Assembly (NCBI GenBank): GCA_027490465.1
Contig: JAIXXZ010000074.1
Location: 1-64,000, forward strand
Source of the DNA: Oxalobacteraceae bacterium
GTDB lineage: Bacteria > Pseudomonadota > Gammaproteobacteria > Burkholderiales > Burkholderiaceae_D
DNA: 64,000 nt
Direction of reading: 5' to 3'
The notes below the pieces were generated by a model. It had not been told where the DNA came from. It ran no database searches and was given only the letters and a program-made list of their open reading frames with translations. Shown here piece by piece: positions 10,442-56,410 of the stretch (its first letter is position 1; every line of letters starts with the position of its first letter). The position numbers and the translations under genes are program-made.

Positions 10442-11488
<1,047 letters not shown>

Positions 11489-20313: not shown

Positions 20314-20381
20314 ATCCACGATTCACGGCGGCCGATATCATCGGGCTGGCGTAGGACAAAACGCTGTTTGCTCCGGGCAGC

Positions 20382-20518
20382 CAGGGAGACGCTGAATAAA
20401 TCCCCATTTAATAGCGAGCCAGCGTAGCTGTGCGACGCGGGGCGCTGCAAGATCAAGGGTTTGCCGTAATTAATTCAGATGAAAAAGTTTCGGATTGAAT
20501 TTAATCAGCACTTCCCTA
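20382..20518 (+). repeat. MITE-like element copy A (forward by core orientation)
   Basis: Ends AGGGAGACGCTGAATAAA...TTTAATCAGCACTTCCCT; core GCGAGCCAGCGTAGCTGTGCGACGC; shared with copies B-D. Confidence 0.85.
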
Positions 20519-22870
20519 GAAGATCTCGCTCTGAGGCTCATCCTCTTTTTTCTCGGTCGATCCATCGCCGTCACCCGAAGGCGCAAGCCCAATCGAGTTT
20601 ACCCCGCTACCATCAGCAAATTCGGTGTACACGTAGTCGCCAGCGTAGGTGGTAACACCATCAGGCATCGCGCGTTCCTGTACGGATAATCCTTTCAGCG
20701 CTTTTTGCATATAGCTGATCCAGATCGGAAGGGCCAGACCGCCCCCCGTTTCGCGGCTACCGAGATTTTTTGGTTTGTCAAAACCGATCCATGCTACCCC
20801 GACCAGTTTTGGGTGATAGCCTGCAAACCAGGCGTCAATGGAATCATTCGTGGTACCTGTCTTGCCGGCGATATCGGGACGCTTCAGTGCCAAGGCGCGC
20901 ATGGCAGTGCCGTGTTTAACCACATCTTTAAGCATGCTGTCGATCAGGTAAGCGTTACGTGCATCGATGACCCGCAGGTTTTCATCGCCAGCTCGCTCGG
21001 GGGTGACCTGAAACAGCGTACGGCCACTGTTATCGGTAATCTTGGATATCAGATAGGGATTAATTTTGTAGCCACCATTGGCAAACACCGCATAAGCACC
21101 AGCCATTTGCAGCGGCGTAACCGCCCCGGCACCGAGAGCCATGGTCAGATACGGTGGATTTTTATCGCGATCAAACCCAAAGCGGGTCACGTATTCTTGT
21201 GCGTAATTGACACCGATCCGATCCAGGATTCGAATCGACACCATGTTTTTGGAGCGCGTGAGGCCTTTGCGCATGGATAATGGGCCGTCATATTTGCCAT
21301 CAGCGTTCTTGGGCTCCCAAGCTTGCGAACCGGTTTTGCCGGCATCGAATACGATGGGTGCGTCATTGATCATGGTGGCCGGGGACAGACCTTTTTCCAG
21401 CGATGCCGAATAGATGAATGGCTTGAAGGTCGAACCGGGCTGGCGCCAAGCTTGGGTCGCATGATTGAATTTTGTACGGCTGAAATCAAAGCCACCGACC
21501 AGCGACTTGATGCGACCATCTTCAGAGCTGATGGATACAAAAGCCGACTCAACCTCAGGCAGTTGAATGATGGACCAGCCCGAGCCTTCCTGCATCACGC
21601 GTATGATCGCACCGCGTCGTATGCGTTTGTTGGCTGGCATTTTGTCGGTCAGTGCCGCTGCGGCAGCACCGAGTTCGGTGTTGGTAATGCTTATTTCCTC
21701 GCCGGATGCCAGCAATGCCTTGACGCTCTTGGAGGTGGCTGACAATACCACCGCGGCAATGATGCCATCGCTATCGGGGTGCTCGGCGAGCTCGGATTCT
21801 ATGGCGGCCTCTGCTTCGGATTTGTTGGCCGGAATATCCATATAGCCTTCCGGACCGCGATAAGGCTGCCGTTTTTCATACTCGAGAACACCACGACGCA
21901 GCGCCAGATAAGCAGCATCCTGATCGGCTTTGGTAATCGTGGTAAAGACATTCAGTCCACGCGTGTAGGCATCCTCCCGGAATTGGTCATAGACCATTTG
22001 TCGCGCCATTTCCGATACGTATTCGGCATGAATGCCGAAGTCCGTGCTGTCCATTTTGATTCGGAGTTCTTCATCGCGCGCTCGTTCATACTGGGCGGTG
22101 GTGATGTAGCCCAGGTCATGCATGCGTTGCAAAATGTACTGCTGACGCGCTTTGGCCCGTTTAGGATTGACCACTGGATTATTGGCTGAGGGTGCCTTCG
22201 GAAGCCCGGCAAGCATGGCCGCTTCTGCAACGGTAATCTGATTGAGTTTCTTGCCAAAATAAATCTGAGCTGCGGAGGCAAAGCCATAAGCCCGCTGTCC
22301 GAGATAAATCTGATTCATGTACAGCTCGAGAATCTGGTCTTTCGTCAGTGTCTTTTCTATTTTCCATGCGAGCAGTACTTCATAGAGCTTGCGCTTGACG
22401 GTCTGTTCACTGGACAAAAAGAAATTACGCGCCACCTGCTGCGTGATGGTCGAGGCACCCTGGCGGCTGCCACTGAACGTGTTGTTAATCATCGCGCGCA
22501 AAATTCCCCAGTAATCAACACCACCGTGCTCATAAAAACGATCATCTTCGATCGCCAGCACGGCTTGCTTCATTACTGGGGGAATATCTTTGTAACGCAC
22601 GAGACTGCGTCTTTCTTCGCCGAACTCTCCGATCAGTACGTTGTCTGCAGAAAAAACACGCAACGGCATTTTGGGTTGATAGGTGGCCAGCGCATCAATG
22701 TCCGGCAAGCTGGGGTAAGCCATCATGAGGATGAAGCCCGCCAGCAGCACGCCGATCAAAAAAAGGCCTCCAATTGTGGTCAACAGGGCCAGCGCCATTT
22801 TGAGTGGTGCCGGCAGGATGTAAGGGCGCTCGCCCTTGGGTGCATCCCCGTTCGGAGTGGATGGATTCAT
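20516..22870 (-). CDS. mrcA: Penicillin-binding protein 1A
   Basis: 784 aa; transglycosylase EDDRFYEHGGVDYWGILRA...GASTITQQVARN; transpeptidase PGSTFKPF and AGKTGTTNDSIDAWF. Confidence 0.95.
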   Translation of the reverse strand: MNPSTPNGDAPKGERPYILPAPLKMALALLTTIGGLFLIGVLLAGFILMMAYPSLPDIDALATYQPKMPLRVFSADNVLIGEFGEERRSLVRYKDIPPVMKQAVLAIEDDRFYEHGGVDYWGILRAMINNTFSGSRQGASTITQQVARNFFLSSEQTVKRKLYEVLLAWKIEKTLTKDQILELYMNQIYLGQRAYGFASAAQIYFGKKLNQITVAEAAMLAGLPKAPSANNPVVNPKRAKARQQYILQRMHDLGYITTAQYERARDEELRIKMDSTDFGIHAEYVSEMARQMVYDQFREDAYTRGLNVFTTITKADQDAAYLALRRGVLEYEKRQPYRGPEGYMDIPANKSEAEAAIESELAEHPDSDGIIAAVVLSATSKSVKALLASGEEISITNTELGAAAAALTDKMPANKRIRRGAIIRVMQEGSGWSIIQLPEVESAFVSISSEDGRIKSLVGGFDFSRTKFNHATQAWRQPGSTFKPFIYSASLEKGLSPATMINDAPIVFDAGKTGSQAWEPKNADGKYDGPLSMRKGLTRSKNMVSIRILDRIGVNYAQEYVTRFGFDRDKNPPYLTMALGAGAVTPLQMAGAYAVFANGGYKINPYLISKITDNSGRTLFQVTPERAGDENLRVIDARNAYLIDSMLKDVVKHGTAMRALALKRPDIAGKTGTTNDSIDAWFAGYHPKLVGVAWIGFDKPKNLGSRETGGGLALPIWISYMQKALKGLSVQERAMPDGVTTYAGDYVYTEFADGSGVNSIGLAPSGDGDGSTEKKEDEPQSEIF

Positions 22871-32086: not shown

Positions 32087-32181
32087 AAGATGTACTCAGA
32101 CAGGTGGTCAGTCGAAAGACGTGAGTTTATCGGGAATGCGTCACTCCGCGCTTTGGAAGCGGGAAAGCCGGTCTTTTGCGC

Positions 32182-32317
32182 TAGGGAGACGCTGAATAAA
32201 ACCGGGTTTTATGGCGAGCCGGCGTAGCGCTGCGATGCGGAGCCAAGGAAAACCAGGGACTTATCACGATTAATGCAGCTGAAAAACTTTCGGATTTATT
32301 GAATCAGGGTTTCCTCG
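32182..32317 (+). repeat. MITE-like element copy B (forward)
   Basis: CTAGGGAGACGCTGAATAAA...core TTTTATGGCGAGCCGGCGTAGCGCTGCGATGCGG...TTGAATCAGGGTTTCCTC. Confidence 0.82.
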
Positions 32318-32365
32318 GGATAGTCTGCCTCGGCGCGCCGATGCCGACGCGCCTAAACCGAGGCG

Positions 32366-39971: not shown

Positions 39972-40003
39972 GCCCCGCTTTATTCATTCAAGCCGCGCCG
40001 GTT

Positions 40004-40140
40004 AGGGAAGTGCTGATTAAACAAATCCAGAAACTTTTGTGACAAGCTCAATGGCACCCAGCCCTTGATCTTGCTGGTCCGCGCATCGCACAGCTACGCT
40101 GGCTCGCCATAAAACGTGGATTTAATCTGAGTCTCCCTAG
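40004..40140 (-). repeat. MITE-like element copy C (reverse)
   Basis: TAGGGAAGTGCTGATTAAA...CCGCGCATCGCACAGCTACGCTGGCTCGCCATAAAA...TTTAATCTGAGTCTCCCTAG. Confidence 0.86.
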
Positions 40141-54409: not shown

Positions 54410-55128
54410 GCAGGTCAAAGGCTATAACGAGATGGATGACCATCGTGCTGATGACCGCGTTGCTCACCGCTTGTGCGAGTCTGCCCTCGGGCTCCACGGC
54501 AGATCCGCGCGACCCGTTCGAGCGCTACAACCGAGCGATGTTCAGCTTCAACCAGACGGTTGATGACAAGGTACTCAAGCCGGTGGCTACGGGCTATGTG
54601 AATGTGATTCCTTCGATGATACGCACCGCGATTGGCAATTTTTTCGGCAATATCGGTGATGTGTGGACTGCGGTAAATAATTATCTGCAAGGCAAGCCTC
54701 GTGAGGGCACCAGCGATGTCGCGCGTGTTGTGTTGAATTCCACATTTGGCATTGTCGGATTGATTGACGTGGCCACGCCGGCGGGTTTGGTTCAGCACGG
54801 TGAAGATTTTGGTCAGACGCTGGGTGTCTGGGGTGTGAAATCAGGCCCTTATCTGGTTCTGCCGATTCTGGGTGCCAGTACGGTGCGCGATGGCTTGGCC
54901 CGGACTCTGGATCTGTATGCAGATCCGATCACTCAGATCGACAGTGCTCGCGTGCAGAATAGTGCGAGAGCGCTGCGTCTTGTGGATGATCGTGCTGCTT
55001 TGCTGGATTCCACGCGCATGATGGAAGATGCGGCCCTCGACCCCTATCTGTTCGTCCGAGATGCTTATTTGCAACGACGCGAGAGCCGGGTCAGAGATGG
55101 CAAGTCTGACCAGGGAGAGGCTGAATAA
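54406..55128 (+). CDS. mlaA: Outer membrane lipoprotein MlaA (VacJ); C-terminus encoded by repeat D
   Basis: Lipobox LLTACAS; DPFERYNRAMFSFNQTVDDKVLKPVATGYV; ends ...KSDQGEAE* where GEAE* is within the repeat. Confidence 0.95.
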   Translation: MSRSKAITRWMTIVLMTALLTACASLPSGSTADPRDPFERYNRAMFSFNQTVDDKVLKPVATGYVNVIPSMIRTAIGNFFGNIGDVWTAVNNYLQGKPREGTSDVARVVLNSTFGIVGLIDVATPAGLVQHGEDFGQTLGVWGVKSGPYLVLPILGASTVRDGLARTLDLYADPITQIDSARVQNSARALRLVDDRAALLDSTRMMEDAALDPYLFVRDAYLQRRESRVRDGKSDQGEAE

Positions 55129-55244
55129 GTCCCCTTTTGATGGCGAGTCAGCGCAGCTGCGCGGCCGGGTGATGAAAAATCAGGAGCCTGGCGCCATTTT
55201 CCTCGCCGAAAAATTTCCGCTGTCTTTTGATCACTGCTTCCCTA
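55111..55244 (+). repeat. MITE-like element copy D (forward), inside the mla operon
   Basis: CAGGGAGAGGCTGAATAAGTCCCCTTTTGATGGCGAGTCAGCGCAGCTGCGCGG...TTTTGATCACTGCTTCCCTA. Confidence 0.83.
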
Positions 55245-55366
55245 GCCAGTTCCAGCGGCTGTGATGGAGTTGCAACGGTTTTTGGCGATTCGTGCTTGCT
55301 TTGGTTATCATCTGCTCATGACCCCGAGCGCCGATGGGCTTTCAATCCCGACATTGCCAATAATTT

Positions 55367-56293: not shown

Positions 56294-56410
56294 GCGCATC
56301 AAGCCTGAAATTTTTGTGGGCGAGAAATGATGCCAAACCTCTGATCTTCCAGGGCGCCGCACAGCAGAGCTACGCTAGCCTGCCCCGTCGCGCAGATTTG
56401 CTGGAGGCAT
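56294..56410 (-). repeat. Degenerate MITE-like element copy E (reverse); boundaries approximate
   Basis: tgaaatttttgtgggc...ctctgatcttccagggcgccgcacagcagagctacgctagcctgcc aligns by eye with copy C agaaacttttgtgac...cccttgatcttgctggtccgcgcatcgcacagctacgctggctcgcc. Confidence 0.55.

Follow-up and report, generated by a model that had tools for sequence, protein, structure and literature searches.

The segments A to D and the decayed remnant E of the window (the whole stretch of 64,000 nucleotides that was analysed) very probably constitute one family of non-autonomous MITEs, moved in trans by an IS5-group transposase. This was deduced from at least 130 copies in the host genome, a target duplication, empty orthologous sites in relatives and a nested insertion. 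As expected of MITEs, the elements are short and multicopy, lack a transposase gene and are bounded by inverted repeats.

A single profile built from 31 copies matched A, B, C and D (E values of 5.6e-39, 1.9e-33, 4e-40 and 1.7e-30, respectively), which bears out the proposal of the first-pass annotation that these segments are one family with common ends and a common core; the decayed fifth copy that it had listed was recovered with the same profile (Table 1). With up to 3 mismatches, the left end occurs 4 times in the window versus 0.24 expected from shuffled sequence, the core occurs 4 times versus 0.00 expected, and the right end is also far more common in the window than in shuffled sequence. 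Since the end and core counts far exceed the expectation, chance was excluded. The flanking 4-mers were as first read (CCAG/CTAG for A and D, CTAG/TCGG for B, and TTAG/CTAG for C on the plus strand). The segments stood while their limits were revised, in that the mobile unit is GGAG...CTTCC (about 131 bp) and the outer YTAG and YTAR are target duplication rather than element. The position of C was confirmed except for one base, the ends being at 40139/40003 and not at 40140/40004. A separate feature of the window is an anti-hemB RNA (Rfam RF02837, 11572-11665, plus strand, 56.2 bits), which adjoins hemB (delta-aminolevulinic acid dehydratase, 10442-11458, minus strand), in line with its name.

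Table 1. Copies of the element in the window, with their target duplications and core
Feature	Position	Strand	Basis
Copy A mobile unit, 131 bp, GGAGACGCTGAATAAA...TTTAATCAGCACTTCC	20385..20515	+	Profile match and target-duplication analysis
A left target duplication, CCAG	20381..20384		
A right target duplication, CTAG; its minus-strand TAG is the stop of the penicillin-binding protein gene 20516-22870	20516..20519		
Conserved interior core of A, model 26-61, consensus TTTTATGGCGAGCCAGCGYAGCTGTGCGACGCGGGG	20407..20442	+	
Copy B mobile unit, 130 bp; empty site in four congeners	32185..32314	+	Profile match
B left target duplication, CTAG	32181..32184		
B right target duplication, TCGG (decayed)	32315..32318		
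Copy C mobile unit, 131 bp, between Na/H exchanger gene and uvrA	40006..40136	-	Profile match
C target duplication at left end, CTAG	40137..40140		
C target duplication at right end, CTAA on minus strand	40002..40005		
Copy D mobile unit, 128 bp, between mlaA and mlaC, at mlaA stop codon	55114..55241	+	Profile match
D left target duplication, CCAG (probably once CTAG, with the mlaA TAG stop)	55110..55113		
D right target duplication, CTAG	55242..55245		
Decayed copy E; only model positions 32-118 still matching	56299..56384	-	Profile match, E 4.2e-9

The terminal inverted repeats are imperfect and 16-17 bp long (GGAGACGCTGAATAAA / GGAAGCGCTGATTAAA). The boundaries that best fitted 77 well-kept copies were YTAG-GGAG...CTTCC-YTAR, with the hyphens marking the ends of the unit. 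Position 1 of the left and right 4-mers was equal in 57 of the 77 copies, compared to 33.1 expected (p < 5e-5, 20,000 re-pairings), and the 4-mers were wholly identical in 16 of the 77, compared to 6.6 expected (p 3e-4), the identical pairs including the rare ATAG, TTTG, CAAG and TGAG. Adjacent columns agreed little, the two just outside the left 4-mer being far weaker (p 0.001 and 0.02). A G tends to precede the target and a C to come after it, giving the preferred context G-YTAG-C. These data fit a 4-bp target duplication with later decay, which TA alone does not; the co-variation of the left and right 4-mers in the 77 copies is what the initially suggested insertion at, and duplication of, a 4-bp CTAG-like target would leave.

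The first-pass annotation had proposed scanning the genome and related genomes for further copies. With a sequence-only covariance model and 150 candidates scored, at least 130 copies were found in the host genome (G000, a Burkholderiales MAG of 3.03 Mb in 115 contigs, from an uncultured bacterium). Their length is nearly constant, 69 of 77 copies spanning 137 or 136 model columns (a unit of about 131 bp plus the 4-bp duplication), while their pairwise identity ranges from 57 to 95% (median, 72%), with one cluster at 90-95%. This spread of identities suggests long-lasting activity with later bursts. Within the genus the family is patchy, the covariance model giving matches in 13 of 21 genomes and none in the other 8; congeners with elements include G031 (104 matches), G012 (70), G030 (67), G007 (35), G002 (30), G016 (28) and G032 (22). 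Beyond the genus, a BLAST search of 399 genomes of the order with the consensus returned short end or core fragments and no full-length copy. The exact core pattern matched eight contigs in the genome collection, from MAGs deposited as Oxalobacteraceae, Burkholderiales or Polynucleobacter. The family had no match in the plasmid collection, the core had none in viral contigs, and those papers that were listed in a literature search on the end sequences had no bearing on them, judged by title.

Movement was supported by comparison of the regions around A to D with those of four congeners (G002, G030, G032 and G012) that are approximately 86-87% identical to the window near the sites. Site B was empty in all four, site C in G002, G032 and G012, and site D in G002 and G030. 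At site A, G030 has a related copy, and the other congeners were too diverged to yield a clean empty site. Empty orthologous sites, a further check suggested at the outset, were therefore found for B, C and D; neither a lack of further copies nor conservation at orthologous positions in all relatives, which had been named as the outcomes that would count against mobility, was observed. On contig C50 of the host genome, a young copy flanked by TTTG repeats sits within an older copy. When the young unit and one TTTG are removed, the older copy aligns over nearly the whole model, scoring 83.9 bits versus 67.8 bits when interrupted. A second nested arrangement was seen on contig C80 (L135, approximately 2520-2753), where a copy has apparently inserted in the core of another; the older copy was recovered in its right part only.

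In the host genome, 69 of 84 copies lie between two gene-sized open frames. The orientation of the neighbouring genes is mixed (37 co-directional, 17 divergent and 15 convergent) and hence gives no sign of a fixed terminator or promoter role. At 12 or more copies the duplicated TAG serves as the stop codon of a gene, probably because the TAG of CTAG is the target and, once duplicated, is still a stop. At site D the mlaA gene of G030, where the element is absent, ends in GAC-TAG, and the mlaA frame of the window reads past CCAG to the TAA of the element itself (55126-55128), five codons further. The mlaA gene beside copy D thereby appears to have gained five codons, and insertion at TAG stops rewrites gene ends. 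On contig C52 (L113, 1078-1214), a copy lies directly upstream of a gene read by eye as pyrG (CTP synthase), the expression of which it could influence.

Other origins were weighed against these data. An IS630/Tc1-type transposase duplicating TA alone within a CTAG target would produce the same anatomy; TA lies in the middle of the target, and a preference for CTAG can occur among IS630-type elements. Such a mover was nevertheless considered very improbable because co-variation links the base outside the left TA to that just within the right end (57 of 77 versus 33), which a TA-only duplication does not predict, and because the full ISs with these ends encode IS5 and not IS630 transposases. 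The duplication of TA alone that is typical of IS630/Tc1-type MITEs was not what the copies display. The location of the window copies between genes (D overlapping the last mlaA codons), the intergenic position of most host copies and the strong conservation of the 36-bp core would also be expected of UTR or regulatory RNA elements maintained by selection rather than mobile DNA. This explanation is scarcely credible given the nested insertion and the empty orthologous sites, the latter refuting it as the origin of the copies, and given neighbouring genes in mixed orientation and no conserved RNA structure. Folding of the copies, as had been advised, gave no conserved fold (consensus energy, -3.1 kcal/mol, with one compensated pair), no copy matched Rfam, and the conserved stem-loop of RNA-forming elements of the Correia/ERIC type was not seen. 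It was also considered that the unit might spread as an in-frame protein insertion like a Rickettsia palindromic element, as the unit and its duplication come to 135 bp (45 codons), one forward frame of the consensus is without a stop and 29 of 77 copies are open in that frame. However, many copies have GCG-TAG in the core, which is a stop in the open frame (the consensus C is at just 0.58), and conservation is lowest at the second codon position (0.79 versus 0.83 and 0.85). Open reading frames enclose 11 copies; by eye, the longer frames examined resemble read-through extensions, as upstream of pyrG, and short ORFs of 86-101 aa account for most of the others. Coding potential was rejected despite the open frame on account of the codon-position pattern and the TAG variants, the coding constraint of in-frame Rickettsia palindromic elements was not found, and spread as a protein insertion is highly unlikely.

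A further question is whether the MITE is also useful to its host. The core (model 26-61, 36 bp) is the best conserved part of the element in the host genome, at 0.89, with the ends reaching 0.85 and the middle 0.78. In copies from G003, G004, G007 and G010 compared with the host consensus, the core is 90-96% identical while the rest has drifted (47-53% over the stretch 62-117 and 62-85% at the ends), and the core was present in 94 of 94 end-pairs examined in the genus. This conservation would favour the core being a putative regulatory module or host-protein binding site that the element distributes to the ends of many genes. Precedents are the 155-bp Correia element with its IHF site and the CIR elements with GANTC (PMC2229807). 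The conservation is partly a search bias, however, because the copies were found with models that included the core and so partly selected for it, and the host copies are diverged and decaying, at 57-95% pairwise identity; a useful role of this kind was judged rather unlikely. Equally tentative is the related proposal that the core is a required module (transposition enhancer, host-protein site or regulatory cassette) kept by selection across the genus. If true, the element would be a two-part mobile unit, with ends for the transposase and a core for a host factor. By analogy, the core is possibly a putative host-protein site needed for transposition, as IHF has been proposed to be the binding host protein in Correia elements (PMC2229807).

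The derivation of the MITE from an IS5-type element, at first put forward from the likeness of the ends to IS5-subgroup ends, was supported by the occurrence of similar ends elsewhere. A search for the end pattern TARGGARRYGCTGAWTWA covered 399 genomes of the order, and the reversed pattern served as the control. Ends consisting of YTAR followed by GGARRYGCTGAWTWA were present in 49 of the 399 Burkholderiales genomes (26 of 158 genera), compared to 0 for the reversed control. A paired inverted end was found at 19 of 30 inspected loci in and outside the host genome, mostly 109-163 bp apart, with identical 4-bp duplications at 15 of the 19; except at the host genome locus, the interiors differ from that of the window family. 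Similar ends also bound complete ISs of 1166-1225 bp in other Burkholderiales, so that the suggested search for a full-length IS yielded ends that are similar rather than the same: the family ends are identical to none of those found, agreeing at 12-17 of 20 positions. The 4-bp repeats of these ISs are CTAG/CTAG (L240), TTAG/TTAG (L238 and L246), TTAA/TTAA (L234) and TTTA/TTTA (L237), and the flanks of L233 are TTAG/TTAA, which are not identical. The transposases of L233, L238, L234 and L246 match NCBIfam NF033581 (IS5 family) at E values of 1e-96 to 3e-104, and those of L233 and L238 have DDE_Tnp_1 and DUF772 domains. In G188, a repeat at contig ends opens with GGAAGCGCTGAATAAGTCCCC and runs into the start of an IS5-family transposase; the end of copy D, GGAGAGGCTGAATAAGTCCCC, is close to this end. 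The window family accordingly has two features expected of an IS5-derived MITE, namely ends like those of ISs with IS5 transposases and a 4-bp YTAR duplication, YTAR being the target of E. coli IS5 (PMC10359306).

Several other short elements were noted during this search. In another Burkholderiales genus (G164, G262 and G292; L185-L187), a different element of about 125 bp has 22 bp of the right end identical to that of the window family and an interior that holds a REP-like palindrome, CCGGCGAAAGCCGG; the duplication at L185 is TTAG/TTAG. Loci in four other families (L198, L209, L210, L215, L216, L218 and L229) have like ends and interiors that are alike by eye (CTCGCCTATCT...GATATGTC), and are perhaps a second, wider MITE family. 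At L190, L203, L204 and L212-L214 the same ends enclose a GTCATTCCCGCGAAGGCGGGAATCCAG-like palindrome, a repeat that may travel as part of IS5-type MITEs. It is suggested that one class of IS5 ends gave rise to different short elements across many Burkholderiales genera.

The mover of the window family is most likely an IS5-type transposase, and the host genome itself seems to encode none now. A partner IS within the same genome would be expected of a recently active MITE, although it is not strictly a defining trait. Neither PF01609, PF05598 and PF13586 nor a full IS5 transposase had a match in the host genome, a draft assembly of the type from which multicopy ISs are often missing; neither it nor any element-carrying congener yielded an intact IS5-type transposase. 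The partner IS would be marked by the end sequence GGAGACGCTGAATAAATCC. In the genus, a full transposase query gave fragments only in G030 and G031, both among the genomes richest in the element: a truncated 190-codon frame and a short stretch containing a stop. No recognisable ends were seen to surround the remnant in G030. The two loci (L263 on contig C46 of G030 and L264 on contig C59 of G031) are decayed IS5-type transposase fragments, and L264 also holds a partial MITE copy and REP-like repeats. The PF01609/PF13586 transposases of G001, G013 and G014 were rejected as the partner, the scanned loci having no matching end pair and these genomes being without the element. In the proposed mechanism, an IS5-group DDE transposase acting in trans would bind the element ends and insert the unit at YTAR, preferably G-YTAG-C, with duplication of those 4 bp. 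Such a transposase presumably did the moving here and has probably since been lost or has decayed in the host lineage. The simplest reading of the sequences is that the element spread at a time when it still had an IS5 partner and that it has outlived this partner. The genomes, with the transposase present, fragmentary or absent, offer a natural series for asking how long such families outlive their mover.

Among known systems, the IS5-family ISs (NF033581; G082, G058, G232, G224 and G188) have like ends (GGARRYGCTGA...) and 4-bp YTAR-type duplications, but they are approximately 1.2 kb long with a transposase, and beyond the ends no match to the 131-bp unit was seen. The short Burkholderiales elements L194, L198, L205, L207, L210 and L212 resemble the window family in the type of their ends and in having 4-bp duplications and are mostly 109-163 bp, with interiors unlike that of the window family. 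The Correia/NEMIS, ERIC and RUP elements are likewise short, high-copy and non-autonomous with inverted repeats, and Correia has an internal protein-binding motif (PMC2229807); they differ in their TA termini, their other ends and their RNA secondary structure, of which the window family shows none. MITEPsy1 of P. syringae pv. phaseolicola, which is 100 bp with 18-bp repeats and has six copies with identical ends in strain 1448A, is related to the IS5 element ISPsy2, and its transposition was trapped in vivo (PMC3189936). Like the window family, it is a short, gene-less IS5-type MITE with imperfect repeats (GGAAGGTCTGAAAAAGCC in MITEPsy1) and a 4-bp CTAG or YTAA duplication. Its likely partner IS is present, whereas that of the window family was not found, and the window family differs in its 131-bp length, its diverged copies (at least 130) and its conserved interior core, in a comparison that covered length, ends, duplication and copy number. 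Judged from these sequence features, MITEPsy1 is the closest known relative and the window family is a new family of IS5-type MITEs, which extends the poorly known MITEs of bacteria by one high-copy family.
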